Notes under the pieces: generated by a model
Databases searched by the model: none
The model's input: only the letters and a program-made list of their open reading frames with translations
Told to the model about the DNA's origin: nothing
DNA from: Agroathelia rolfsii
Taxonomy: Eukaryota; Basidiomycota; Agaricomycetes; Amylocorticiales; Amylocorticiaceae
DNA length: 64,000 nt
Direction: 5' to 3'
NCBI GenBank assembly: GCA_018343915.1
Contig: JABRWF010000001.1
Span: forward strand, 5,456,001 to 5,520,000
Position numbers and translations under genes: made by a program
In this document: piece after piece, positions 6,960 to 45,337 of the stretch
Numbering within the stretch: the stretch's first letter is position 1
Layout: each line of letters opens with the position of its first letter

Positions 6960-7433
6960 GGCTCAAACGGAAGCAAAGAAAGAATGAGTAACTTCAAGTC
7001 ACATCACGTCACGTCACGGCCGGAAGACGCGGGGTTTCTCCGGCCCGGGCTACCGTGACAATGTGCTCATGTCTGACTTGAAGCTTCTCTCCGTCGCATC
7101 TTCCTGCCTTGACGGACGGAGGCTCAGGCTGCCCGTTTCCAAAACAACAAACCCCAAGAAATAAATGATCATTTGGTCCCCCACAAAGGGTTCAAGTTTG
7201 GCCGAATCTCAACATGGCGTCAATAATGCACGTCGAGTCTACCCACTGACGGGCCGTCGGATGAACACACTTTCTCTATTCACCAGGCACTTTTTGATGC
7301 GTGTCCATGGCTTCGGAGTAACTTTTGGTGAAAGGACAGCTGGCAGTACCAATGCAAACGCATATATTAGGATCGCCGGCGGAATCAAGCTACTATACTC
7401 ACAATGACCACTAATGAAGCCGTGTTCCAAATT
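6960..7433. other. Divergent intergenic region between TRM2 and GH74-1
   Basis: No convincing gene. It holds the divergent promoters of TRM2 (minus) and the first GH74 gene (plus). A GC-rich stretch around 7018-7052 contains CCGGCCCGGG-like palindromic sequence. Confidence 0.5.
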
Positions 7434-7526
7434 ATCCTACAATTCTCCGCCAAATTATCTATCCTGATGTTCTCAAGGCGACTGCTGGTGGCTTGGGATG
7501 CCCAAGACTTTTCATCCCTATATAAA
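7434..7526 (+). promoter_or_regulatory. GH74-1 promoter: shared ATCCTACAATTCTCC block and TATA box
   Basis: ATCCTACAATTCTCC (7434-7448) lies 149 nt upstream of the ATG and recurs at nearly the same distance before the other two GH74 genes. A short TGATGTTCTCAAGG-like stretch follows. TATATAAA is at 7519-7526, about 60 nt before the ATG. Which factor binds is unknown. Confidence 0.55.
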
Positions 7527-7582
7527 GCCACAAGGCGAGGATTCAGTGACCCAAATCGCCACTCGACATCATCATTGTGATC

Positions 7583-10500
7583 ATGGTGCCGAGGTTGAGC
7601 ATTGTAGCTGCCCTCCTTGCAGCTCCGCTGGCCCTTGCCGTATCATCCCAGCCGTACAACTGGGCCAGCGTTCAAATACGCGGTGGCGGCTTCGTTCCTA
7701 ACATCATCTTCAATCCATCCAAGCAGGGTCTAGCATACGCTCGCACAGATATCGGTGGAGCATACCGTCTGAACTCGGATGGGTCGACATGGACGCCCAT
7801 ACTCGATTGGGTAAACAACACTTACCCAAACATGTGGGGTACCGATGCCCTCGCGACGGACCCGGTTGATACATCAAGGCTTTACATTGTGCGTCCCGTG
7901 TCGCTTTGTTTTGTTTTTTTTAGGCTAAGTGGCTTGCCTTATCTAGGCTGCTGGCTTATACACCAATTCTTGGGATCCTAATAACGGCCACATTCTGGCA
8001 TCTACGGATGAAGGGAATACATGGAGCATTTATCCTTTGCCATTCAAAGTCGGAGGCAACATGCCCGGGCGTGGCATGGGAGAGCGGCTAGCCGTCGACC
8101 CAAACCTGAATAATGTCTTGTACTTTGGCACGCGTAATGGCGGTGGCTTGTGGAAATCAACAGATTATGTTTGTGCACGTCAAGTATTAAGTGCAGGTCA
8201 AGGATCTAATATTTTTCTTACGTTTAGGGTCAAACCTGGGCAAACGTGACAAATTTTCCCTCTGTCGGTAAGTTTCAAGATCAAGAGCTTGCAGGTGCGA
8301 CCTGTTTTTTTTTGAAACAGACTGCTCTTAGGGACGTACGCACCGGATCCTACCGACACCAGCGGATACAATAGCGCTCTTATTGGGATTGCTTGGGTCA
8401 CGTTTGACTCTACCACGGGCACATCTGGAAGCGCTACACCGCGCATCTTTGTTGGTGTAGCCAATTTAGGATCGACCAACATTTTCGTATCTGAAGATGC
8501 AGGATCGACGTGTGCGTATATATGCGGTCTTTAGTAGGGATAAAAGTCTCACACATAGAACGAAATATAGGGTCTGCCGTTGCGGGTCAAAACAGCACGT
8601 ATCTGCCTCACAAGGGTGTTTTGTCTCCTAAGGAAAAGACGCTATACGTATCTTACTCCAATGGTGCGGGCCCCTACGACGGGACGGATGGCTATGTACA
8701 GAGGTACAACATTTCCACTGGCGAGTGGACCGATATCACTCCCAGTAAGTCCGTTATTATAAGACAAGTATGAATGATAGCACCTAAATGGCGTTGTTTT
8801 AGGCGGAGAGTACTTCGGTTTCGGTGGCTTTGCGGTTGATTACCTCAACCCTGGAACGGTCATGGTTGCCGCGCTTAACAGCTGGTGGCCAGATGGTCAG
8901 ATATATCGTAGCACGGATAGTGGCAACACATGGACTGGCCTCTGGGCCTGGAGTACGTTGCTCTTTTGCATGTCACTCTTTGCCTTAATTACAATAGCTG
9001 ATCGCGCTCATCAGATCCCTACCCAACACTCGACAGATACTATACATATAGTGATGCCCTTGCTCCATGGCTCGGCCCCGACTATACATCGGCAACTGAA
9101 ACACTACAAATTGGATGGATGATGGAGGGTCTCTCCATCGATCCTTTCAACTCTGATCACTGGCTCTACGGCACTGGCGCGACCATCCAGGGCGGGTTTG
9201 ATCTCACAAAGTGGGACACGACAAGGAACATCACACTGGAGTCGCTAGCGGTCGGTATCGAGGAGACGGCTGTTCAGGATCTGATCTCGCCACCAGTGGG
9301 AGCTCATCTACTTTCTGCTGTAGGTGATATTGGAGGTAAGTTTGGCTTGAGGATATGGGCGCAGAGAGAGCCAGACAAAATGACTTGGATTAGGTTTCGT
9401 GCACGAGGATCTCAACAGTCCACCCGCTAACGAATATTCAAATCCGACATTCTCGACCACGTCTTCGATCGATTTTGCAGGAAATAACCCTCTGATTATT
9501 GTCCGTGTGGGAACGGGTACATCGTGAGTAGTATCCGAATACTAGACAGTCGTTTGCTTCCGCTGAAAAGCTGCATACAGCGACCCGGGTGAATGCGCGA
9601 TCTCGGCAGATGGAGGCTACACTTGGAGTAACGCTTCCGCAGCGCCTGCCAATGTTGAGGGTAAGTGATATGGGGATTGACCTGACACCTTCGCTCATCA
9701 TGTTTTAGGTGGCCAAGTCGCCATTTCTGCAAATGGGAATACTGTCTTGTGGAGCTCCGCTTCCAATGGTGTCCTCCAGTCGTCAAATGTCAACAGCACA
9801 TTCACAGCAGTTTCTTCCCTCCCCTCCGGTGCTGTTATTGCCTCAGATAAGCTCAACAACTCGATCTTCTATGGCGCATCGGGCTCCGTGTTCTACACGT
9901 CTACCAACGGCGGTCTCACCTTTTCCAAGACTGGGACACTCGGCAGCTCTAACACGCCAGTCAAAGTCGCTGTAAATCCCAACGTCACTGGTGATGTGTG
10001 GATCTCGACGGATGTTGGCTTGTTCCATTCCTCATCCCTGGGTGCTGCGCCTGTTGCTATAAGCCAGATCACAGAAGCTGTATGTACAATCACAGAACGT
10101 TTCCCGGCTCTTCTAACATATCTGATAGTGGGCTATTGCTCTTGGAGCACCAGCAACAAGCGGTGGATATCCGTAAGCATAAGATGATGTTGTGTACTTT
10201 CTCTTTCTCATCGCTTGCGTATACTACAATAGTGCTGTATATGCAGCTGCAACCATCGGTGGAGTGATGGCGTACTACCGCTCTGACGATAAGGGTGTTA
10301 CCTGGCTCCAAATTAACGACGAAGCTCATGGGTTCGGGCCTGTGACCTCTGTCGTGCTGGCCGGAGATCCTAGGATATATGGCCGGTGCGATGCAATTTT
10401 CATGTTTACTTACAGCGTCGCTGAAGAAGCTGAACACGTAGTATCTATCTGGGCTCTGGAGGCCGTGGTATATTCTACGGAGACATAGCCGGCTCTACCT

Positions 10501-10912
10501 CGTCTTCGACAACGACAGCTCCGACATCTACATCTTCGAAGGCATCTTCTACTTCACACTCGACAACGACCACTTCGAAGGCTTCTACAACAAGTACGAA
10601 ATCTTCAAGTACGAAGACGTCGTCTACCTCGACAAGTGCCTCTGCTACTTCCACCGGATCAATAGGCGCATATGGACAGTGCGGCGGTAAGCAACATTTT
10701 ACTTGACACTCAAGCGATGAAAAACTCCGTGATTGATTTGTAATGCCGTTGTGTAGGCTCCGGCTGGGCTGGCGCTACCGCTTGCGTATCCGGTTATGTA
10801 TGCACTTATTCGAATCCATGTCAGTGCATTTTCAGCTTTATCCAATATTTTTATATATATTTAACGATAACTTCTATACCACGTAGATTACTCGCAATGT
10901 CTCCCGAGCTAG
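7583..10912 (+). CDS. Secreted GH74 xyloglucanase with C-terminal CBM1 (copy 1)
   Basis: GH74 enzymes cut the beta-1,4-glucan backbone of xyloglucan outside the cell. About 15 exons can be spliced with GT-AG introns of roughly 50-90 nt; the first is 7583-7888 and the second starts at 7947. Residues 1-20 form a signal peptide ending LAAPLALA. The seven-bladed propeller repeats follow. Probable catalytic Asp residues, by family knowledge, are in RTDIGGAYR (near residue 56) and SAVGDIGG. A Ser/Thr-rich linker then leads to a CBM1 with YGQCGG, CVSGYVC and YYSQCLP, ending in TAG at 10910-10912. The true start is the ATG at 7583, preceded by a non-coding GTG. No frame break was seen. Endo- versus reducing-end-specific activity cannot be decided here. 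Confidence 0.93.
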
Positions 10913-12467
10913 GCAGAACAAGGGATAAGTTCATGGGTACGCCAGAGATTTCCGATTTCTGTGCCAGTGGGATTCCTTTCACACTGAAACTCGTAATAAT
11001 ACATTACGAAAGTCCAGTATTGTGTATATCAATATCAATAATAAAAACTTACACACGAAAAAATAGATTCCGCCACTCAAGATTTACTCATATACTGTTT
11101 GCTTTGATCCTATCATTTAAAATTCGCGCATACACTGGTTCAACGAAGGGTCAAATTATGCGTCCGCTGAGCGCCCATCGGGCGATGCGAAGCATGGCCC
11201 ACAGTTGCCAGAGTACCGGGCAGTTTTACGACCGTCCAAAGCACTGCCTTGTGAATCAGCCCTTTTTTCCTTATAGCCACCAGAGAAAAAAAAAAGTCCG
11301 GTAGCTGAGAATACTAGTAGACCAGATGTACACCAACAAAGCAAGAGTGTAGTGTTGCTCGATGAACAACATTCCGTATACTATCTATGGCTATAGCTGT
11401 GTGGATAACATGTAAAAAATCTGACCTGCTACAACGAAGTTTTTTATTTATTAAATATAACGATTAGAGACGCCCGGACCGTCATTCAACCACCGGCCCG
11501 GAACGACTTTTTTATTATTATCAGTAATTATAAATTGATACACTGCATTATGTACTGCAAATAAGCTAGTGTAAGAAATGTATTAGCAGGTCAAAAGTGA
11601 AGGTACTGGTGCACTTCACCAGCACCTTCACTTTTGAAGTGATGTAGGGGTTCATGCACGTTCCTATTTTGGGGAGTGAAGCTGTAAAATACACGTGAAT
11701 AAGTTTATGGCTAACTAACTCAAAAAAATGCGGGTTATCGGACTTCCGCAATCAGTACTTCAACGATATATAATATCTTGACCTTGGACTTGAATATGCC
11801 ACATACGTATATACTCTGGCCTTGTTCATGTACCACTGGCACATATAGTCCTATTTGAGATGCCCCTCTGGAAGCCTAACCAAAGTCGAACGAAACTCGA
11901 CTACTTCTCCCACTGACATTCAACTCCGCTTAAACATATCATATACCACTCCAAATCAGGCTGCATCGCACAATTATCTCTCATTACGCAGAATTGCTAG
12001 TGATCAGTCGGGGAGCTGAGCACCAACTTAGGATCTTTCCATTGGAGTCTTCGTAGACAGCACGCAAAACTGATTTACTGGCTTTCTGGCTTGGAAATTC
12101 GACTAGGAATATTCAAGTGCTCTACGTTCCGCTGATTCCTGGGTTGCCAGTGGACGCATGTGGGTCAACCAAGCTTCTAGTGGGCGGCTCGTAATCGACT
12201 CCCGGCAAAAGCTCGGTATGCCCCGTCATCAGTGATGTATGTGGGCTCACTGGATGTCCACCGGATGGAAGCATACAACAGCTCCTCTCTATCCAGTAAG
12301 TAGTTGTATTTAATGACACATACTTATCGCCCCGGAGTAATAGTAGTTTATGCTCGTCCTACGGCAGCTGACAATGCGACCGCAATATATTAGGAGTGCC
12401 ATCAAGCGCAAGAAAACATTTTTGCAATGGTGATCTATAAACTTGCAGTCACGTCGTCTTCCGAAAT
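10913..12467. other. Intergenic spacer between GH74-1 and GH74-2
   Basis: No coding sequence I can support. It is AT-rich in parts and contains one strong hairpin (11592-11636). Confidence 0.5.
11592..11636. repeat. 20 bp inverted repeat (hairpin)
   Basis: Arms 11592-11611 and 11617-11636 (CAAAAGTGAAGG...CTGGTG and its complement) match at 19 of 20 positions around a 5 nt loop. It could be a terminator-like hairpin or the core of a small foldback element. No flanking target duplication is obvious. Confidence 0.75.
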
Positions 12468-12566
12468 ATCCTATAATTCTCCGGAAGCTATCTGCTCTGA
12501 TGTTCCCAAGAGCAATGCTTACGACTTCAGTCTTGGGATATTTTGGCCTAGCTCGCAGTATATAAG
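12468..12566 (+). promoter_or_regulatory. GH74-2 promoter: shared block and TATA box
   Basis: ATCCTATAATTCTCC at 12468-12482 differs by one base from the block before GH74-1 and lies 148 nt before the ATG. A TGATGTTC stretch follows. TATATAAG is at 12559-12566. Confidence 0.55.
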
Positions 12567-12615
12567 TAAAAGCGGCTTAGATTTTTTCAAACCAATTCAT
12601 TCAGCATAACTACCC

Positions 12616-15600
12616 ATGATGTTGAAGTTGGGCATTGCAGCAGCTCTACTCGCGACGCCGTTGGCTCTTGCCATATCATCCCAGCCGTACAACTGGGCGA
12701 ACGTCCAAATCCACGGTGGCGGCTTTGTTCCTAACATCATATTCAATCCATCCAAGCAAGGTTTAGCATACGCCCGCACAGACGTCGGTGGGGCGTATCG
12801 TCTGAGCTCTGATGGGTCGACATGGACGCCCATACTCGATTGGGTGAACAACACTTATCCGGAAATGTGGGGTGTAGATGCCCTCGCAACAGATCCAGTC
12901 GATACATCGAGGGTTTACCTTGTTAGTAACACAATGACTGGAGATTGCTTTTGCTAGACTGATGTAATTTTCTACTCAGGCTACCGGATTGTACACCAAC
13001 TCCTGGGATTCCTACAATGGCCACCTTTTAGCATCTACGGATGAAGGAAATACGTGGAGTATATATACACTACCATTCAAAGTCGGAGGCAATATGCCCG
13101 GGCGAGGCATGGGAGAGCGGCTAGCAGTTGATCCAAATCTTAACAATGTCTTGTATTTTGGCGCGCGCAACGGCTATGGCTTATGGAAATCGACTGATTA
13201 TGTTTGTTTGTCTCATACAGAGGCATAACTGCATTTACTGACAGTTTTTGCGTTTAGGGTCAGAGCTGGTCTAATGTTACCAATTTTCCTTCTGTCGGTG
13301 AGTTGCCCACACCAAGCTGAAGCTATCGTACCTAAGCAGTTGATCTAGGGACATATGCGCCGGATCCTAGCGACACCGATGGTACAGATAGCGAGTTGAT
13401 TGGCATTGCTTGGGTCACATTCGACTCGACTACGGGTTCTTCGGGAAGTGCTACGCCACGCATCTTTGTTGGAGTAGCCAATATGGGGCCTACCAATATC
13501 TTCGTATCCAACGACGCGGGAGAAACGTGTTCGTTATCATTATCATTACCCACTTTTACGCTACGCAACTCATTTGTGAACGAACTTAGGGTCTGCTGTT
13601 GCCGGCCAAAACAGCACGTACCTTCCCCACAAGGGAGTTCTGTCCCCGAAACAAAAGACTCTTTACGTTTCTTACTCTAATGGGGCCGGGCCCTACGATG
13701 GGTCGGATGGTTACGTCCAGAGGTACAACATTTCAACAGGAGAATGGACTGATATCACACCCCCGTCACCCAGTGAGCAAACTGCCTAGTATTACTCTAT
13801 AGGCACTATCTGAAATACTATTGACAGGTGGAGCGTTATATTTCGGCTTTGGTGGTCTTGGCGTCGACTATCTTAATCCTGGCACTATTATGGTTGCCGC
13901 TCTGAATTCCTATTGGCCAGAGGGAATGATATATCGTAGCAAGGATAGCGGAGATACGTGGAGTCCCATTTGGGCTTGGAGTATGCAAAACATTTTGCGT
14001 CTTTATATATTATACTAACGATTGCTATAGATCCTTATCCCACCGTTGACAGATACTATACGTATAATGATACTCTTCAACCATGGCTTGGACCAGACTA
14101 CACAGCAACCGGAGATGCATTGCAACTTAATGTGATGATGGAAGGGCTTTCTATTGATCCTTTCAACTCTGATCATTGGCTCTATGGAACCGGCGGAGGT
14201 GTTCAAGGCGGATTTGACCTAAGCAAATGGGATACAGTCCACAATATGACTCTCGAGGTCCTTACAGCTGGTATAGAAGAAACTGTCGTCAAAGGTTTGA
14301 TTGTACCACCAGGCAGCCCCCTTATATCTGCTGTCGGTGATAGTGGAGGTCAGTATGCTACTGCAAATGAAGACACGTGTATCAGAATCACTCAAGTGAA
14401 TTGATGCTATCCTTTCAGGTTTTATTCACACCAGTCTTGACAGCCCACCTCTGAACGAATTCTCAAGCCCTTCTTTCCAGACTGTCTCTGGAATTGACTT
14501 TGCGGGAAACAACCCTCTGATCATTGTTCGCGTTGGAGCCGCAGCAGCGTGCGTTATCTATAATGCACCACGTAGTTAGCATGACTGAATTCTCTGCACA
14601 GCGACCCGGGTCAGTGCGCGCTCTCGGCTGATGGTGGACACACTTGGAGCAATGCTTCTGCAGCACCTGCCAACGTCCAAGGTAAGTGGCCCAGCTAAGC
14701 TCAAATATTGAGTCGTTAATTTATGAGGACTTACATCTGCCATAGGTGGTCAAGTCGCCATATCTGCAAATGGTGACACTGTTCTCTGGAGTTCATCTTC
14801 CAATGGTGTCCTTCAATCATCAGATGTCAATAGCACCTTTACAGCAGTTTCTTCTCTACCTTCTGGGGCAGCTATTGCTTCAGATAAGCTGAACAACTCA
14901 ATCTTCTATGGCGCATCGGGTTCTGTGTTCTATACATCTACCAACGGCGGTCTCACATTTTCTGAGACCGGTACACTTGGCAGCTCCACTGCTCCATACA
15001 CAGTCGTGGTAAATCCTAGCGTTACGGGCGATGTATGGATCTCGACGGATGTCGGCCTATTCCATTCTTCATCTCTGGGTGCTGCGCCTGTTGCTATCAG
15101 TCAGGTTACAGAAGCTGTGAGTATTGTCAAATGATGCCTTGTTGATGTTTCTAACCGCAAAATAGTGGGCTATTGCTCTCGGAGCGTCTGCAACGAGCGG
15201 TGGATACCCGTAAGTAGGAACATTGTATCGCGATTTTCTTTTCTCACATGCTACATATACCTTGATAGTGCTTTATATGCAGCTGCGACTATCAATGGGA
15301 TCATGGCATATTATCGCTCCGACGATAAGGGCGTTACCTGGCTCCAGATTAACGATGAAGCTCATGGATTCGGCCCTGTCACCTCTGTAGTGTTGGCCGG
15401 AGATCCTAAGAAATATGGCCGGTACGATTCTTTTTTGGTGCCCGCTCACAAAGCCACTGAAGAAGGCGATGATACAGTATTTATTTGGGTACTGGAGGGC
15501 GTGGCATATTTTATGGAGACATAGCCGGCTCTGCCTCGTCGGCTCCGACGTCTACGTCTTCGAAGGCAACGTCCTCCACGTCACATTCGACAACGACAAC

Positions 15601-15948
15601 TTCAAAGATTTCAACAACAAGTACTAAGTCTTCAAGCACTAAAACATCGGTAACGAAGACTTCAACTTCTACTAGTGCCTCTGCTACTTCCACCGGATCA
15701 GTAGGTGCATATGGACAATGCGGCGGTGAGTAGTACTTTCAAAGTTCATTTCCAAATAATTAACAATGTTATTTATTTATTGTAATGCTATCGTATAGGC
15801 TCTGGATGGACTGGAGCTACCGCTTGCATATCCGGATACGCATGCACCTATTCAAACCCTTGTAAGGCTGTACATTATCTTCTCATTTTTTAACTTTGAC
15901 TAATCACGACCTCTCTACGCAGATTACTCGCAGTGTCTCCCGAGCTGA
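12616..15948 (+). CDS. Secreted GH74 xyloglucanase with C-terminal CBM1 (copy 2)
   Basis: Closely related to copy 1 with the same exon plan; exon 1 is 12616-12921 and exon 2 starts at 12980. The signal peptide (MMLKLGIAAALLATPLALA) is followed by the propeller with RTDVGGAYR, GGNMPGRGMGERLAVDPN and SAVGDSGG. In that last motif Ser replaces the Ile of copy 1, but the Asp is kept. A Ser/Thr linker and a CBM1 (YGQCGG, CISGYAC, YYSQCLPS) end in TGA at 15946-15948. All junctions examined splice in frame, so the gene looks functional. The 2-3 intergenic gap is longer than the 1-2 gap because of inserted relics. Start: the first of two adjacent ATGs. Confidence 0.93.
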
Positions 15949-16826
15949 ATGATGAGCCCGATTGTTTTCTTAAAAACAGATGTACAAATGCACCAACTGT
16001 TTAAACTTTCCAATATCCATATAGAGATTCATTTGGACTGCAGCGCTTGGCTTTTGAATATGGTTTTCCTGTTGTATTTTCTCACAAAAAGTCATAATTC
16101 ATTGTGCCATTAAATCACAGCAGTCGCGGTTGAGAGCTACATGAATTGGACCGAGTACAAAAGGTTGGCACATGTAAGACTACTTATGCAAGTCAAAACC
16201 AAAAGTTATTTGACAGATGAAAGAAAGTAGAATGAGAAAAGGCCTAGTAAAAGCCAGAGAGATGGTCAAAGTGTTAAAATGCTGATATATGATGATAGAG
16301 GGTCGGCCGCAGACAACAGTAGACAACACGAGTAAAAATTCCGATTGTCGTAGTACGTGGTGGTACGCAGTCAAACGGATAGATCTACAAAACTTACATC
16401 TGCCAGATAAAGTACAATCTCATCACGTGATGAACTTATCCGCTGCATCGAACGCATGGTTTGCAACTCCAAGTGTGTTGCAATCAATGTGTGAAGCTCG
16501 CATGTGGCGTTAACAAATAAGTAAGACAGAGGGTCGCGTGAGAATTATTTTTTTTTAAACGTTTATATACCGCATCATGTACTAAAATCAAACTACGGTG
16601 TAACGAGGGCTGTAGTGTAAGTTACGCAGGATAAGGAAGTGTGGTGTATAGTGGCATGAGGGTTATCATGAAGAATGTACTGGAAAGGTTAAAAAAACCA
16701 GCTGATTGTGTTGTGGTGAGTACCAAAGTGGGGAGGGGAAGGGTATATATATGATTAGAAAGAAATTAGGGGGGGGGGTGGTGGTAAAGATGGAGTTCCC
16801 ATTTTGGTAGAATACTGAGGGCGTTT
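15949..16826. other. Intergenic spacer after GH74-2
   Basis: No gene supported. It contains a T-rich run near 16548 and leads into the LINE relic. Confidence 0.45.
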
Positions 16827-18460: not shown

Positions 18461-18967
18461 TGAGATGTATTTTGGTCATGATGAGAAGCATGTGGATTCA
18501 TTTTTATTTGATTAAACTATAACATATAATAATGGGCCAGACGTTCAGCCCAGAGGCGAGTGGTCAAAGTGGTGGATACCAGTGTCTGTAGCCAGTTAAT
18601 TGGTAGCGCGCGCGAAAAGTGCCAAGTCCCGCGTAGCTCTGAGTCCCTATGAAAAACGGCTCCTCCTCGAGCCCTTTTCGGGAACACGCACGAAACCGAC
18701 AGCACATACAAACAAAAGAAAAAGTCGGATCGACTCGGACCAGAATTCAAGGTACGAGCGCGATAGCGCGGGGTTTCGTTCCTGTTCGCGAAAACGGGCT
18801 TGAGATTCTCAGGCCGGACTTTTTTATCCATCGGCCGTGCATGCTCATGGCGGCGGAATAATTCGTAGCTTTCAGGCAGCTGACTATTATCGCTTTATAT
18901 TAGGAATTCCATCAAGTGAGAGTTAATACTTTCGCTATCACAATACTCTTTCTCCGTACTCCGATTT
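18461..18967. other. Spacer before GH74-3 with right inverted-repeat arm
   Basis: No gene supported. It holds the right arm of the inverted repeat and the distal GH74-3 promoter. Confidence 0.45.
18600..18745 (-). repeat. Right arm of diverged inverted repeat around RecQ fragment
   Basis: Its reverse complement carries CATAGGGACTCAGAGC and GCGGGACTTGGCAC, matching CATAGAGAGCC and GCGGGACTTTACAC in the left arm. Confidence 0.5.
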
Positions 18968-19067
18968 ATCCTACAATTCTCCATCGAGTTCGTTATCTTA
19001 ATGTTGTCGAAGCAACTGCTGGGCGCTCTGATCTCGGAATCTTTTTGCTGGGATTGCAGTATATAAG
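18968..19067 (+). promoter_or_regulatory. GH74-3 promoter: shared block and TATA box
   Basis: ATCCTACAATTCTCC at 18968-18982 is identical to the block before GH74-1 and lies 160 nt before the ATG. TATATAAG is at 19060-19067. Confidence 0.55.
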
Positions 19068-19127
19068 GCAATATGTATTAAGCAAAAATTTCTCCCATTA
19101 ATCCCATCATTCAGCATAGCTGCCGCA

Positions 19128-22100
19128 ATGTTGAGGCCGAGTATTGCAGTAATTTTATTTGCAGCGCCATTGACACTTGGCATATCATCCCAGCCGTACA
19201 ACTGGGCCAATGTGCAAATACGCGGTGGCGGCTTCGTACCTAACGTCATTTTTAATCCATCCAAACAGGGCCTAGCATATGCCCGCACGGATATTGGTGG
19301 AGCATACCGTCTGAACTCGGATGGGTCGACATGGACGCCTATACTGGATTGGGTAAACAACACTTACCCAAATATGTGGGGCATCGATGCCCTTGCGACA
19401 GACCCAGTTGACACATCAAGGGTTTACCTTGTTCGTGGTTTATTTTATTTTTCATGCATATCCAGGCCTGATTTGTCTAGGCCGCCGGACTGTACACTAA
19501 CTCCTGGGATCCCAATAATGGGCATATTTTGGCATCCGCGGACGAAGGAAATACATGGGAAATTTATCCTTTGCCTTTCAAAGTCGGAGGCAACATGCCT
19601 GGAAGAGGCATGGGAGAGCGGCTAGCCATTGATCCAAATCTCAACAACGTTTTGTATTTCGGCACACGCAATGGCAACGGCTTGTGGAAATCGAGTGACT
19701 ATGTTTGTTCATTCTATGCAGTAATGTACGAATCAGACGCTGAATAATTTTTGTACTTAGGGTCAGACTTGGTTTAATGTTACCAATTTTCCTTCTGTGG
19801 GTTAGTGGTGCAATACAAAGTCGGAATTACATTTAATCAAATGACTTAGGAACATATGCACCGGATCCTAGCGACACCACTGGCTACAATAGCGCGTTGG
19901 TTGGTATAGCTTGGGTTACATTTGACTCAACTACAGGTACTTTAGGAAGTGCCACGCCACGCATCTTTGTTGGCGTAGCTAACTTGGGATCTACAAATAT
20001 TTTCGTATCTAATGATGCGGGAGCAACATGTTCGTCCATAATTGCTTGCTGTCACTTTCTACAGATTATTCATCTAGACAATAAATCCAGGGGATGCCTT
20101 AGCCGGACAAAACAGCACCTACCTACCACACAAGGGTGTTTTGTCCCCGAAACAAAAGACTTTATATGTTTCTTATTCTAATGGGGCTGGACCTTACGAC
20201 GGAACAGACGGTTACGTCCATAGATATAACATCTCGACAGGAGAGTGGACCGATATCACGCCCCCGTCACCCAGTAAGTCGTTTACACTGTACTCTATGG
20301 GTAACATTTAAGACTGGTTGTTCGCAGATGGGGGACTACTATATTTCGGCTTCGGTGGTCTTGGTGTAGACTACCTCAATCCCGGCACTATCATGGTTGC
20401 TGCTCTGAATTGCTATTGGCCTGAGGGAATGATATATCGTAGCACGGATAGCGGCGATACGTGGAGTCCCATTTGGGGCTGGAGTACGTGAAACAAATCA
20501 TAATATCCTTATGATTTGTGTTAAACATTGCTGCAGATCCTTATCCCACTGTTGACAGATACTTTGCATATAATGATTCCCTCGCGCCGTGGTTTGGACC
20601 GGATTACACAACAACTGGAGATGCATTACAGCTTAATGTAATGATGGAAGGACTTTCCATTGATCCCTTCAACTCTGATCATTGGCTCTATGGAACCGGT
20701 GGAGGCGTCCTAGGCGGATTTGACGTCAGTAGGTGGGAAACCGTTCATAATGTGACCGTCGAGGTTCTTTCTGTGGGTATAGAGGAGACAGCAGTACAAG
20801 ATCTGATTGCACCACCGATTGGCGCACCCCTAATATCTGCAGTTGGCGATAGCGGCGGTCAGTGTTGTCCTCAAAACGAAAGCTGGCCCTTCAGGAATGA
20901 TTAAATGAACTTGATTTTGTTTCAGGTTTTGTTCACACCAGTCTTACTAGCCCGCCTCTCAACGAGTTTTCAAGTCCCGTTTTCGCAACCGTATCTGCAA
21001 TTGACTTTGCAGGTAACAACCCTCTGATCATTGTCCGTGTTGGTACTGGTGCATCGTAAGTGGCGTAGAAGATACTAGATTATCATTGTAACCAACTCTC
21101 TCCAAAGTGATCCAGGCGAATGTGCCCTCTCTGCAGATGGGGGTTACACCTGGAGCATCGCTTCCGCGGCACCTGCCAATGCTGAGGGTAAGCGTTAAGA
21201 TCTAAGACATCAATCCAGACTGAATTTTCCCCTCTTTACTCACTATGCCCCAGGTGGCCAAGTCTCCATCTCTGCCAATGGTGACACCGTCCTCTGGAGT
21301 TCTGCTTCCAATGGTGTCCTTCAATCTTCAGATGTCAACAATACTTTTATAGCAGTCTCTTCTCTCCCCTCTGGTGCTGCAATAGCTTCCGACAAGTTAA
21401 ATAACTCGATCTTCTATGGCGCATCGGGCTCTGTATTTTATACATCTACCGATGGAGGTCTCACTTTTTCTGAGACTGGTACACTCGGAAGCTCTACCGC
21501 ACCGGTCAAAATTGTCGTAAACCCAAATATTACGGGTGACGTGTGGATCTCGACGGATATCGGCCTATTTCATTCTTCATCCCTGGGTGCTGCGCCTATT
21601 TCTATCAATCAAGTGACAGAAGCTGTGAGTGTCATATTTTCCCACGAAGAATCAGTGAATACCTCTGACGCTATCAATAGTGGGCCATTGCTCTCGGAGC
21701 ATCCGCAACGAGTGGTGGATATCCGTAAGCCGATAGAATACTACTCTCTTCTACCATATTTTCTAAATTATTGGTCATAAATCGTCAGTGCCATATATGC
21801 AGCTGCGACTATCAGCGAGGTCACGGCATGTTACCGCTCTGACGACAAGGGTATTACCTGGCTTCAGATTAACGATAAAGCTCATGGATTCGGGTCCGTG
21901 AACTTCATCGTATTGGCTGCGGACCCCAAGTTGTACGGCCGGTACGCTGCTTTTTTTGGCCTCCGCCCTTGAAATTTATTGAACAAGATTAGTATTTATC
22001 TTGGCGCCGGCGGTCGCGGTATATTCTATGGAGACATTGCTAGCAATACCGTGACATCATCCTCAAGCACGATGCGTTCGACCTCTACGATTTCAAAGAC

Positions 22101-22479
22101 AGGGTCGTCCACTTCCCACACAACGACTTCAAAAGTTTCTACGACAAGCCAGAAGTCATCGAGTGCAAGTATTTCAGTATCCAAGACGTCTACGCTAACT
22201 AGTCCATCGGCTACTCCCACATCACTAGCCGGCGCATATGGTCAATGTGGTGGTGAGCAATTTATATCTATGTACTTTATTCAACAGCCTTATTAACGTG
22301 TCTGTAATATTATTCTGGCAGGTTCTGAATGGACGGGCGCTACCGCTTGCGTGTCTGGATATATATGCACTGTCTCGAATCCTTGTCAGTAGTTTTCACA
22401 TATTTGCATCTTTTCGTCTTCCCTTTTTAATCAGATCTCTCTCACACTGGCAGATTACTCACAATGTCTCCCGATTTAA
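19128..22479 (+). CDS. Secreted GH74 xyloglucanase with C-terminal CBM1 (copy 3)
   Basis: Third tandem copy with the same exon plan; exon 1 is 19128-19430. The signal peptide is MLRPSIAVILFAAPLTLG. The propeller has RTDIGGAYR, GGNMPGRGMGERLAIDPN and SAVGDSGG. The last propeller part is more diverged than in copies 1 and 2 (for example CYRSDDKGITWLQINDKAHGFGSVNF). The linker is Ser/Thr-rich; the CBM1 has YGQCGG, CVSGYIC and YYSQCLP, ending ...LPI and TAA at 22477-22479. All exon joins examined keep the frame. Function is as for the other copies; the divergence may reflect altered specificity or relaxed selection. Confidence 0.92.
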
Positions 22480-22659
22480 ATGATGAATACGCTTGCTCTA
22501 TGAAAGAATGAATCCACAAATTTATCGAGGGTTTCTAATGCCTACGTATCGCTTTGAGATCTCGAAGATATAGATATGACCCCTTGATCGTATTTCATGA
22601 TAAATCAAATAGCAGAAGACACCGAAGAACAAATGAAACTTAAATCTCAGCAAAAGGAA

Positions 22660-27326: not shown

Positions 27327-27399
27327 GGCAAGATAGCTCAGTTGGTAGAGCACCTGTATATATAATGGGAGGCCCTGGGTTCAATTCCTAGTCTAGCCA
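27327..27399 (+). tRNA. tRNA-like gene, anticodon by position AUA; possible pseudogene
   Basis: 73 nt fold as a full cloverleaf. The 7 bp acceptor has one A-A mismatch (GGCAAGA/TCTAGCC). The D arm is GCTC/GAGC, the anticodon stem CCTGT/ATGGG and the T arm CTGGG/CCTAG with loop TTCAATT. A-box and B-box sequences are present, and TTTT (27401-27404) follows as a pol III stop. The anticodon loop ATATATA places AUA at positions 34-36, not a normal fungal anticodon. The body resembles tRNA-Lys. A decayed tRNA-Lys or a tRNA-derived SINE head is more likely than a working tRNA. Confidence 0.55.
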
Positions 27400-30954: not shown

Positions 30955-32509
30955 CCTAGAATTTATAGGAGTTTTATCAGTAAACAAGCGAAATTACATA
31001 GAGGGGATAGGCACGCCGGAAAATGAGTTGAAACGGTAAGCCTTACCTTCTATCACAGCCTGAACAAAATGCAAGCAATTCATGTCTGGGGTATCCACAA
31101 CACTTGACGCCAGCAAAAAAAAAAAAAAAAAAAAAAATGGTGAGTAACTCTGCATAGAAAAATAACAGATTGCTAATTATGTATTTACTGAGCGTATACT
31201 CGATCACTTCACAATCTTCCTGATTCATGCGCCAGATCGGTGAACTGCTTCTTAAAGTAGTCATGGCTGGCGCAGACATCGCCCTGCTCGCCATCGTAAT
31301 CGGGGAAATGCGTTTTTATGTGCGAATTCTGGATCTTCGCTTTGAATAATTCAGATCTTGTGAGGAATACGATCTGACTATATTTGTTTTTCTCTCATAA
31401 TAGAATATCCAGGGGGGAAATGACGTACGACATAGATGCCTCTTGAGTACATGGAATGTAGAATTTGCTGAAAGGTGTCTATAGCGTATTGCATTTGGTT
31501 CTAGATGGCAAAGTTAATTAAGCGTAAATTTACCACCAAAAACACTCACAACATCCTCATCCTCGGAAAGTGTTTGATCGTAGCAACTCAAGGGTACAAA
31601 GAACACCATGAAATACATGTCCTCAAAAGCCTGGACCCACTTCCGTCGTCTCATGTTCTGGTTGCCCGGATCTACAAACACGCACTCCCAGCTAGAAATG
31701 GGGAGGACTATCTCTATTGCTCCTTGTGCTGGCAAACTGGAATAGTTGATAGAGTCCTGGCCGTATGTCGGTTGATAGGCTGAGTCTGATAATCGATCCA
31801 GATTGGCAAGAAAGTATGCCAAGCCGCGCTAGATAGCGGAGGTTTCAAGTTGGAAAGGGACGAAGTCTCCCGTCAGTGCAGTTAGGATAGAAACAAGTCA
31901 AAAAGCGCTGCTTGGGGGCTGTTACCTCGTTTTGACAATCCAGGCTGGTCTTTGACCCTGCATTAGTCCAGAGCATTTTGGATGCATCACGGTATTCTTG
32001 AGAATGACGCTTATCGTCACGGATGTCTAGAGTCTTGTCGCCGACAAACTCGGTGTACACCTCATTCTCCAGAGATAGTTTCGTGTCCATCAAATCGAGT
32101 GGATGTTTCACTCGATCTGTGGGAAAAGGGAGAAGATGCTGGCTGTGCGCCTTACATTCTCTCTCAGACCCGTCATGTTGAGAAGAGCGTAATTGCTAGG
32201 ACATGTATACTCAGGGTAGGGATACTAGATGCTAGGGCCAAGAGAACCAAGCCAAAAGCTAGTGCCCACCTCAATGAATGCTGACTTTCCTGAATCGTGA
32301 ATACCAAGAACGAGTACCTGTATTTGGTTCCTCCTCCTCTTTCTGTCCTATCATTTACGATCGAAAAAAAAAAAATCGTTGAGCTGTCGATCGCCCCACG
32401 GAATTCAAAGCCAATGAACTTCTGTTAAAGCCTTTTCTATATCCTCTTGTCTCTGTTTTTCCTTCCTCTTCTTCACCATTGCGATCCCAAGGGACATGAG
32501 GGCTCCCAT
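30955..32509 (-). pseudogene. Degenerate G-protein alpha subunit (Galpha-2)
   Basis: Minus-strand paralogue of the intact gene at 43443-45337. Exon 1 (32509-32420) starts MGALMS, keeping the Gly2 acylation site; exon 2 (32347-32270) is 78 nt, as in both paralogues. It stays open through most of the protein, then has TGA at 31211-31209 where the intact copy continues to the TATDT region. Eroded motifs: P-loop GIHDSGKS, switch I AQGAIE for RTIGMT, DPGNQ for DVGGQ, TRSE for NKSD. Downstream an exon still resembling DTAMLRVVMAAVE ends at 31047. A one-base exon site (TTCTAG-G-GTGAGT) is at 30955. An A-run (31113-31136) interrupts the 3' part. A truncated protein could be made, but GTP binding is unlikely. 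Confidence 0.75.
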
Positions 32510-37842: not shown

Positions 37843-39446
37843 ATGCATATTCTAAAGAAGGTTTGTAGGATCTCCTGGCTTTACTGTTTTCAATATATAC
37901 CTCCTAACGCTCACAAATAATGTATAGGGCAACAAAGCAAGGAGAGTACGACTGGAAGTACTCATGATTAGCACCGATAATTCATCAAAAGCTAGATTCC
38001 TCGAGGTAGTGTTTCACTGGTATTTGCATCTATCTTTATCCTGGATTTAGTACGTATCTAGCAATTATACTTCCACAGAGGAATTTCTACATCCTTTTCG
38101 GAGAAGGAACGCGAAGCATATCGTCGGCATATTTTTCGCTCCGTCATAGACGCGCTGGAGCAACTGCTAGACTCGATGGTTGATTCGGGATTGAGGTTGT
38201 CTCCGGAAAATGAGGTGCATGCAAAACTTATTGACAGGGCTCCAGACATCCGTGATCATGAGCCTTACCCTCAAGAGTACCTTGATGCACTCAAAGCGCT
38301 CTGTAATGATGCAAGCGTAAAAGTCATCCTATATAGTCGACTCACAGATGGCGCAAGAGTTACAGCCCCTAAGTAGTACGTTCCAACACTGCTTGATTGG
38401 ATTTTTTTTCTCGTTCTTTTTCTTCGCCGACTTGAATCTCATTGACGGGCATAGCTTGTTATACTTCCTGGCCGATTTGGATCGGATTTTTGGCACCACT
38501 TACCAACCGACAGATAAAGATATCATCAATTGTCCTTATTTGCCCACCCAAGGAGTAATGGAGACAGTCATCCCATCTATTTACAATTTTAAGTTCATAG
38601 ATCTCGGCCCTCACAAAATTAAGCAAAGAAAGTGGATGCATATGTTTGAGGACGTCACTTGTATCCTGTTCTTTGTATCCTTGAGTTGCTACGATCAACC
38701 TCTTCCTGAAGATCCGGATATCGTGAGTGATCTACGGAAATTAATTCCTGTCATTCGCGACTCATGACACCTGCAGAATCATATGATCGATTCCATGAAT
38801 TCTTGGAGTTCTATCTGTCACTCCCAATGGTTCATGAATAAATCCATCGTGGGCAGCAATTTCTGCCATTGTTCCAAAAGAAATGACTACTTACCTAAGT
38901 ACTTGAAACTTCGTGCTTATCCTTAGATTCTATGCTTGACCGAATCCAAATCGTTTGAAGCAAAAATTCATCATTCAAACATACAAACATATTTCCCTGA
39001 TTACGACGGTGCTCCAGGAGATGCCCGCGCAGGTCGTAGCTACTTCAAGAAACGGTTCACACGTCTGGCACTGCAGGCAGGAAGGTCCCAGACGCGTGAA
39101 GTTTACGTTCAGTAGGCATTTCACTGCCTGGAGTATTGATTGAATTCAGTTTAAATCAATACCAAGTGTTACAGACTTCAATTATTGTGCGGATTGTTAC
39201 CGTTTTGTTTTATCCGCGTTGGAAGGTGAGCTCATCACTTCTTTTTTTTTCCCAACACTTTTATGGGTCCATATTCAACGATTTTTCCCTATGCACTTTC
39301 TTATGCACCCCCTTAGAGTAAGTAAAACTATCGTTTGATCTCCGTCCGTGATCCACATCCAATCACTATTAATCCAATTTCGAATATTCGTCAAATGAAT
39401 CTAATCACGGTTTGTCTCTAGTATCGTACTTCAGGGTTTCAAGTGA
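37843..39446 (+). CDS. Divergent G-protein alpha-like protein (Galpha-3), nucleotide-binding motifs lost
   Basis: Nine exons can be joined: 37843-37860, 37928-38005, 38062-38372, 38455-38722, 38777-38848, 38927-39111, 39167-39225, 39317 and 39422-39446. They total 1017 nt (338 residues), in frame only if the one-base exon at 39317 is counted. Exons 2, 4, 5 and 6 have exactly the lengths of those in the intact G-alpha. The fold is recognisable (FSEKEREAYRRHIF, YFLADLDRIFGTTYQPTDKD, PDYDGAPGDARAGRSYFKKR). But the P-loop is STDNSSKA, switch I TQGVME, DVGGQ is DLGPH, and NKSD is TESK. The acylated MGxxxS start is gone and the C-terminus is cut (IVLQGFK). GTP binding is not expected. It may be a decoy-like protein or an open pseudogene. 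Confidence 0.6.
39317..39317 (+). other. Candidate one-nucleotide exon (A) in Galpha-3
   Basis: Context CCCCCTTAG-A-GTAAGT. The intron before is 91 nt (39226-39316), the one after 104 nt (39318-39421). It sits at the same codon (Asp, GAT split G/A/T) as the one in Galpha-1. Confidence 0.65.
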
Positions 39447-43442: not shown

Positions 43443-45337
43443 ATGGGAAACTGCATGTCTTCCGGGATCATTGAAGTGACAGAGGAGGACAAAGTAAGAC
43501 ACAAAGATGCTGAGAAGGCTTTAAAAGAGGTTCGTCTATCTTTCAACTCACCATAGCATGCGACCTGCAGGCTCTACGGGGTCAGCATTCTTGAGATGTT
43601 TCGACAGAACTTTCTCCCTATGGATCGATTTTATGTTCTTCTTCTTTTCTCACAACCACTTTGCTTGTCTAGGCCCAGAAAAAGATGGCAAAACAAGTGA
43701 AAGTTCTGCTACTCGGATCCGGCGATTCTGGCAAGTCAACCATCCTCAAGGTAGGTGGACCATTCTATATTTGGTTTTGCTAGTATTCATATTCTACAAA
43801 TATTTCGAATAGCAAATGCGTCTAATCCACTCTGTACCTTTCTCGACGCAAGAGCGGGAGTCTTACCGCCAGCTCATTTTCAATAACCTCACGGAGGGAA
43901 TGAAATATGTGCTTGACGCGATGGAAGATATGGATCTAAAGTTATCCAAGGACAACGAGCAGTATTATGAGCTCGTAGCCAACGCTCGTGATATTCGTGA
44001 TCACGAAGCATATCCCAACGAGTTTTATGAGCCACTCAAAGCGCTTTGGTTGGATCCTGGGGTGCAGGCAGCTTGGGAGCGTGGAAACGAGGCGGCCCTG
44101 CCAGAAAAGTACGTGCTTAGTTCGATTTGCTGTTCGCCCGATCAATTTTTCCTTGGGCTCGTTGTTTGATCGGCTAACTTCCTCATGCATTTTTTTTTTT
44201 TTTTGTTTGCTTACGCTTGAGTTTCAACAGTTTAATTTATTTCTATCCTGACCTGGATCGTCTCTTCGACTCCTCATACCAACCCACTGACCAAGACATC
44301 GTTCAATGCCGCGCACGTACAATTGGCATGACAGAGACAAGCTTCCATCTTCGCGACCATGAGATGCTTATGATTGACGTCGGCGGTCAGAAGAGCGAGC
44401 GACGGAAGTGGATCCACTGTTTCCAAGACGTGACGAGCATTCTTTTCCTTGTCTCCTTGAGCGGATACGATCAGCCTCTAATAGAAGACAAGGATGTTGT
44501 GAGTTATTGCCGCTGTTTCTGCGCTCCGTGATTGATTGCTGATGAAATCTTGATGGTGATGCGAATTCATATAGAATCAAATGCAGGACGCTATGACAAT
44601 CTGGGACTCCATATGTCACTCTCAATGGTTCAAGTCGACATCCATCGTACGTGATGATCATTTCATTCAACTGGAGCGTATGCACTAAAGACTCCGCGTG
44701 GTGCCAGATTCTGTTCTTGAACAAGAGCGACTTGTTCGAGGCAAAAGTGGCGAATTCTGATATCAAGAACTTCTTCCCTGATTACGATGGCGAGCCGGGT
44801 GATGCGCGTGCCGGCCGTAGCTATTTCAAGAAACGGTTCACGCGTTTAGCACAGAAGGCAGGAAGGTCGCAAGAGCGCGAAGTTTATGTCCAGTAAATAC
44901 ACCCTTCATCTTTCATTCCTCTCCCTCCTGACAGAGCTGGTTTGCTAACCTTATTTCTTCAACCTAAAGCGTTACGACTGCTACGGATACGGCTATGCTG
45001 CGTGTTGTCATGGCCGCAGTAGAAGGTGTGTTCATTACTTCGGTTTCTCCATACGTTTTCTCTGCGTGCTCTCAAATAGGTTAACTAATATTCGTGTCTG
45101 GTTTTACAGAGTGAGTCTCTCAGTTCTTTGCCATTTCTTGTTATTTTCTTTCGCCTATTTTTATTTTCTATTTCTTTCTTGTCTCTATTTTTCTTTTTTC
45201 TTTTTTTTTCTTGGTCATCTGCGTCCGTCCAAGCGTCCGAGTCTAATCATGTTCCTCTCCTCAACTCCAACTCTCGGATCTGGTCTCGCTCCAGTATTAT
45301 CCTTCGCGGCAATCTTGAACACGCGGCCCTTATATAA
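43443..45337 (+). CDS. Heterotrimeric G-protein alpha subunit (Galpha-1, intact)
   Basis: GTPase switch of receptor signalling at the plasma membrane. Nine exons: 43443-43529, 43673-43750, 43813-44108, 44231-44498, 44575-44646, 44708-44892, 44970-45025, 45110 and 45295-45337. Total 1086 nt, 361 residues, usual G-alpha size. Seen: MGNCMSSG (Gly2 and Cys4 acylation sites), P-loop GSGDSGKS (residues 44-51), switch I RTIGMTET, DVGGQKSERRKW, NKSD, TATDT, and the C-terminal helix AVEDIILRGNLEHAALI. The last helix is reached only through a one-base exon at 45110; a single intron from 45026 to 45294 would shift the frame. GSGDS replaces the classical GAGES. Receptor and effector are unknown. Confidence 0.9.
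45110..45110 (+). other. Candidate one-nucleotide exon (A) in Galpha-1
   Basis: Context TTTTACAG-A-GTGAGT, with a TTAACTAAT branch-like site about 25 nt upstream. It splits the Asp codon of AVED as G (45025), A (45110), T (45295). Flanking introns are 84 and 184 nt. Confidence 0.75.

Follow-up and report, generated by a model that had tools for sequence, protein, structure and literature searches.

A putative one-nucleotide exon in a tandem cluster of G-alpha genes of Agroathelia rolfsii

The G-alpha gene at 43.4 kb and its reading frame

The window considered here, a 64-kb stretch of contig C1 of the Agroathelia rolfsii genome, carries three copies of a tandem G-alpha gene cluster, at approximately 31.2 kb on the minus strand and at 38.1 and 43.4 kb on the plus strand (W31, W38 and W43, respectively), while four more copies lie on contig C2 at 5402-5419 kb (L009, L010a, L010b and L012). 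Over most of its length the window is collinear with C2:5372001-5442000, in blocks that are ~82-90% identical, a relationship which would fit either very divergent haplotypes of a dikaryon or homeologous chromosomes. Three blocks of the window (7264-11044, 11637-16103 and 18845-22572) each have several matches to the C2 region at ~73-77% identity, and this sequence pattern suggests another tandem gene family. A tRNA gene at 27327-27399 on the plus strand (RF00005, 52.1 bits) was the sole Rfam match in the window at the gathering threshold.

The W43 protein matches the G-alpha family PF00503 with 393.7 bits (E 8.9e-118) over profile positions 3-333 of 333, and its translation contains the motifs GSGDSGKST, DVGGQKSERRKW, NKSD and TTATDT. 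With a full-domain match and the canonical motifs, the gene encodes a heterotrimeric G-protein alpha subunit. Its features are as follows.

43443..45337, plus strand: G-alpha gene of nine exons, including the putative one-nucleotide exon, 361 aa (gene model and Pfam)
43443-43529, 43673-43750, 43813-44108, 44231-44498, 44575-44646 and 44708-44892, plus strand: exons 1-6
44970..45025, plus strand: exon 7, 56 nt, ending in phase 1 (..GTA GAA G)
45026..45109, plus strand: intron 7, 84 nt, GTGTGT...TTTTACAG
45110..45110, plus strand: candidate one-nucleotide exon A, middle base of a GAT (Asp) codon in helix alpha-5
45111..45294, plus strand: intron 8, 184 nt, GTGAGT...CTCCAG
45295..45337, plus strand: exon 9, T-ATT-ATC-CTT..., coding for IILRGNLEHAALI-stop

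Exon 7 ends in phase 1 and exon 9 requires phase 2, so that the frame lacks exactly one base where the two meet. The initial annotation had counted 1085 nt for exons 1-7 and 9, and 1086 nt once a single A at 45110 is added; all of its coordinates hold, and the longer sequence encodes 361 amino acids plus a stop with normal spacing at the C-terminus. The same annotation had placed this A between a good acceptor and the donor GTGAGT, and the context is indeed present, with the base lying directly between AG and GT (ACAG/A/GTGAGT at 45106-45116, preceded more fully as TTTTACAG/A/GTGAGT). When the A is included, the protein reads across the junction of exons 7 and 9 as VVMAAVEDIILR and its C-terminus is restored as ...MAAVEDIILRGNLEHAALI. 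The distance from ATDT to the C-terminus is then 25 residues, equal to that in L011, a G-alpha gene on contig C3 of the same genome, and alignments to two solved G-alpha chains are free of gaps from ATDT to the end. Pfam scores place the A-included protein only slightly ahead, at 393.7 bits compared with 390.8 for a join from an alternative donor at 45030 (discussed below) and 389.2 when the A is skipped.

Skipping the A yields a frame without DIILRGNLEHAALI. The initial annotation had held that skipping shifts the frame and loses helix alpha-5; the shift stands, but the loss is partial, since the first half of the helix is kept while the last 14 residues are replaced and the reading runs beyond the normal stop. 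The resulting C-terminal extension is unlike between W43 and L009, and we therefore rejected the skipped form as a functional product. Retention of intron 7 or of intron 8 was also rejected, as it leads to early stops in both copies. RNA folding around the candidate exon was unremarkable (z 0.86; 162 of 200 shuffles as good), and a search of the genome for a retrocopy of the spliced 100-nt junction returned no such copy, its four matches being the separate exons on C1 and C2, which is uninformative.

Conservation of the site among G-alpha copies

L009 on C2 shares its exon structure with the window gene, and likewise the donor, the acceptor, the single A and the donor that follows it (AG/A/GTGAGT). 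The two coding sequences, both of 1086 nt, differ in 50 codons, of which 42 are synonymous and 8 amino-acid-changing, and the differences fall 7/0/44 over the three codon positions; this excess of synonymous change indicates that the gene is under constraint. In exon 9 there are three differences (ATT/ATC, ATC/ATT and CTT/CTG), all of them third-position and synonymous in the A-included frame and all amino-acid-changing in the skip frame. Because the donor at 45030 yields the same frame, this synonymy backs the frame and not the A alone.

C1 and C2 show no difference over the 3' part of intron 8 (45204-45289), compared with ~82-90% identity for the blocks of the region; when one mismatch is allowed, the tract ranks about seventh in length among the distinct tracts of the window. 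It folds slightly better than shuffled sequence (z -1.84; 9 of 200 as good), which is not persuasive. The tract may be a splicing element, an alternative in-frame segment or a conversion tract.

Each of the seven cluster copies carries the sequence (C/T)AG-R-GTRAGT 78-91 nt after exon 7, so that within this one genome the splice sites are conserved in all of the related genes of the cluster. At the GT donor exon 7 ends in ..AAG in the cluster copies, or in ..AAGG in L010a, and the single base is A in six of seven copies and G in W31. The two further sites in the window are the following.

39317..39317, plus strand: homologous one-nucleotide exon (A) of W38, CTTAG/A/GTAAGT, with exon 9 picked by eye from 39422
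30955..30955, minus strand: homologous site of W31 with G for A, TCTAG/G/GTGAGT; an in-frame stop lies upstream, and exon 9 was not recognized

In 18 of 21 pairs the alignment of the intron 7 interiors scores no higher than shuffled sequence (z below 2, with 30 shuffles per pair), and only W43/L009, W38/L010b and W31/L012 are alignable. Since the site is kept in all seven copies while the surrounding interiors are mostly unalignable, the 10-mer appears to have outlived the intron sequence around it. On both strands of the 64-kb window YAGRGTRAGT occurs three times, compared with a shuffle mean of 0.78, and 4 of 100 shuffles reach three. The count alone is not striking; the placement is, as all three occurrences fall at the homologous spot in the window's three G-alpha genes. 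Exon 9 could be picked in five copies (W43 and L009, and by eye W38, L010a and L010b), with T straight after the AG, and in all five the single nucleotide completes GAT. No exon 9 was recognized in W31 or L012, and the G of W31 would not give Asp.

The five cluster copies other than W43 and L009 have lost NKxD (TESK, TESE or TRSE), and their C-termini are altered or unrecognized. Most of their tblastn matches to the W43 protein show ~28-56% identity, with 67% in one exon, although some of these values include intron columns. Judged from these sequences, five of the seven copies look degenerate or re-purposed, and they may be decaying. Conservation of the site would thus point to long-lasting selection, which is not necessarily current and, given the loss of NKxD, the altered C-termini and the stop and G of W31, may be partly past.

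At three G-alpha-like loci that are not part of the cluster, L011 (Glu), L028 (Glu) and L029 (Asp), no intron interrupts the equivalent codon; L011 has no intron at the equivalent place, and L029 has a nearby intron at another position. Among the loci read, these contiguous codons indicate that the one-base exon would belong to the tandem cluster. A gene-strand scan of nine other G-alpha-like loci for YAGNGTRAGT found it in one (L028), at an unrelated place upstream of the C-terminal exon, and the looser AGNGTRWG matched in five of the nine (L028, L029, L031, L034 and L035). Five matches to the site pattern were found in viral contigs, none of them a relative.

Alternative readings of the junction

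Other in-frame joins exist around 45110, but they alter the protein. Among joins ending in NLEHAALI we counted 27 single-intron GT solutions and six cassettes of 1 to 28 nt in W43, and 19 and six, respectively, in L009; the single-intron GT solutions mostly insert long segments. GC-donor solutions numbered 22 in W43 and 13 in L009. The initial annotation's statement that no other GT donor near 45025 lies in phase proved incorrect, as there is one that adds a single residue.

45030..45031, plus strand: alternative in-phase GT donor in a poor context (TGT/GTTCAT), joined to 45295

A single 265-nt intron from this GT would give the mRNA GAA GGT GTT ATT and one extra residue (VEGVIILRGN). The donor is in phase in the window copy and in L009 (AVEGVIILRGN), and the synonymous changes of exon 9 agree with it just as well. 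However, donors follow the consensus MAG/GTRAGT, which TGT/GTTCAT matches poorly, the extra residue would sit in the middle of alpha-5, and the conserved AG-R-GTRAGT would be left unexplained. Furthermore, none of the five other cluster copies has this GT, and their donors read GTGAGC, GTAAGC or GTAAGG. On sequence comparison it is the paralogs that decide between the A exon and the 45030 donor, and we consider a join from 45030 highly improbable. We give as small a chance to an alternative 3' splice site at 45233 (AAG/CG) that, used with the normal donor in a main or minor isoform, would add 20 residues in frame (VEASESNHVPLLNSNSRIWSRSSIILRGN). Here the frame is open in both copies and the last part of intron 8 (45204-45289), identical between the contig copies, is among the longest such tracts of the window, but the added residues would fall within alpha-5 of a conserved G-alpha, the window copy has no YTRAY branch motif upstream of 45233 within intron 8, and the single difference just past the identical tract is, in this reading, an amino-acid change (S/P).

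The lack of exactly one base from the frame at a single junction could also be explained by an assembly or sequencing error that lost a base, or by gene decay, with AG-A-GT as a coincidence. Two contig copies nevertheless show the same structure, as do five more copies that differ in sequence, and the coding sequence is clearly constrained; taken with the placement of the sites in the window and the unalignable interiors of intron 7, the same arrangement in sister genes makes an accident very unlikely, and we would be most surprised if error or decay were the explanation. Scarcely any weight falls, finally, on a twin intron (stwintron) or a different micro-exon, for which the six cassettes in each copy leave room. 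One such candidate, the C at 45234 (AAG/C/GT, giving VEAIILRGN), is in frame and present in both copies, yet it has a poor acceptor and donor (AAG/C/GTCCGA), encodes Ala instead of Asp and lies away from the site kept by the paralogs. A stwintron of the [D1,2] type, in which the donor of an external intron is interrupted between its first and second bases, was rejected: a single base separates the end of intron 7 from the GTGAGT donor and would stay in the mRNA, and joining 45025 to 45295 without a residual base is out of frame.

Proposed splicing, precedents and significance

Our preferred reading is that position 45110 is a real and old one-nucleotide exon spliced in steps, to which we assign a probability of about 0.88 on sequence grounds. 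Given the footprints of these factors on splice sites, U1 and the 3' splice-site factors are not known to occupy together an acceptor AG and a donor GT that lie one base apart. As the two sites could not be used simultaneously, removal of the introns would have to be stepwise, as the initial annotation had proposed; the order is an inference. In a first step intron 7 (84 nt) would be excised, joining GAAG to the A and leaving GAAGA/GTGAGT, and in a second the removal of intron 8 would produce GA-T and the normal G-alpha helix alpha-5. Two features favor this order. Transcription finishes intron 7 185 nt sooner than intron 8, and intron 7 contains branch-like YTRAY motifs (45081-45085 and 45085-45089) whose first bases lie 29 and 25 nt from its end, while the sole YTRAY motif of intron 8 (CTAAT, 45243-45247) is 52 nt from the intron end. 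The motif is absent from intron 7 of W38, and intron 7 of L010b has only one, far off at 57 nt from the AG. Whether intron 7 is still in place (acAG-A) or has been removed (gaAG-A), AGA directly precedes the intron 8 donor, so that the donor context and pairing with U1 would be independent of the order of removal. The arrangement probably predates the cluster's tandem duplication and originated when an intron was gained at AAG^A, a single base 5' to a phase-2 donor that was already there.

One-base exons of this kind are already known in nuclear genes, namely the plant genes APC11 and VPS55 and the Fusarium gene CYP621A. The initial annotation had cited the rarity of such exons with APC11 as precedent; APC11 is borne out, and VPS55 and CYP621A have to be added. 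In APC11 of Arabidopsis and other land plants a single A lies between AG and GT and is essential for the frame (PMC4674806, PMC8831610), as would be the case in the G-alpha gene. The APC11 exon has been confirmed by cDNA and reporter assays (PMC4674806, PMC8831610), whereas the case made here for a G-alpha gene is one of sequence evidence. The authors of the APC11 study favor intron definition, with two introns removed successively, and cite the 9-nt exon of potato invertase, where the second intron is reported to leave first (PMC4674806). The 1-nt microexon of plant VPS55, described in 2022, is likewise old and has one base between AG and a conserved GTRAGT donor; after duplication one clade kept it and the other lost it, while all seven cluster copies of G-alpha keep the site, and intron retention provides a second isoform in some lineages (PMC8831610), while in G-alpha it gives early stops. 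CYP621A is likewise a fungal nuclear gene with an AG-N-GT arrangement; there too the nucleotide supplies the second position of a codon within a conserved motif and was spotted by a clash of phase. CYP621A differs in that the base is G, the protein is a P450 and the evidence consists of 20 orthologues across Fusarium species and RNA reads (PMC12940212), whereas the G-alpha site is common to tandem paralogues of one genome.

Fungal stwintrons of the [D1,2] type resemble the proposed splicing in that two successive excisions occur at one position and the first prepares the donor of the second, but there the internal intron sits within the external donor, after its first base (PMC12403724, PMC9024468, PMC5639578), whereas intron 7 of the G-alpha gene stops short of the donor by one base, which would be kept in the mRNA. 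In passages of a Rhizoctonia genome paper (PMC4014442), small exons appear only in a software setting, and our searches of the open-licence PMC literature listed no one-base exon from any basidiomycete or from a G-alpha gene. As far as these searches show, a G-alpha gene with a one-base exon and the retention of such an exon across paralogs are both new.

A bolder reading combines two proposals, namely that the one-base exon is an old and selectively kept control point of the G-alpha family, at which the success of two-step splicing decides the receptor-coupling C-terminus, and that regulation of this splicing, or else an alternative in-frame segment, comes from the conserved end of intron 8 (45204-45289); we regard the combination as a long shot. 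Automatic annotation of such G-alpha genes likely garbles the receptor-contacting C-terminus. If transcripts confirm the exon, the G-alpha genes would join APC11, VPS55 and CYP621A among the nuclear gene families known to have a one-base exon, as a family that encodes a core signaling protein. Because the diverged sister copies keep the 10-base site while the intron sequence around it has turned over, the cluster would offer a natural series on what splicing needs and on the order in which the introns are removed.
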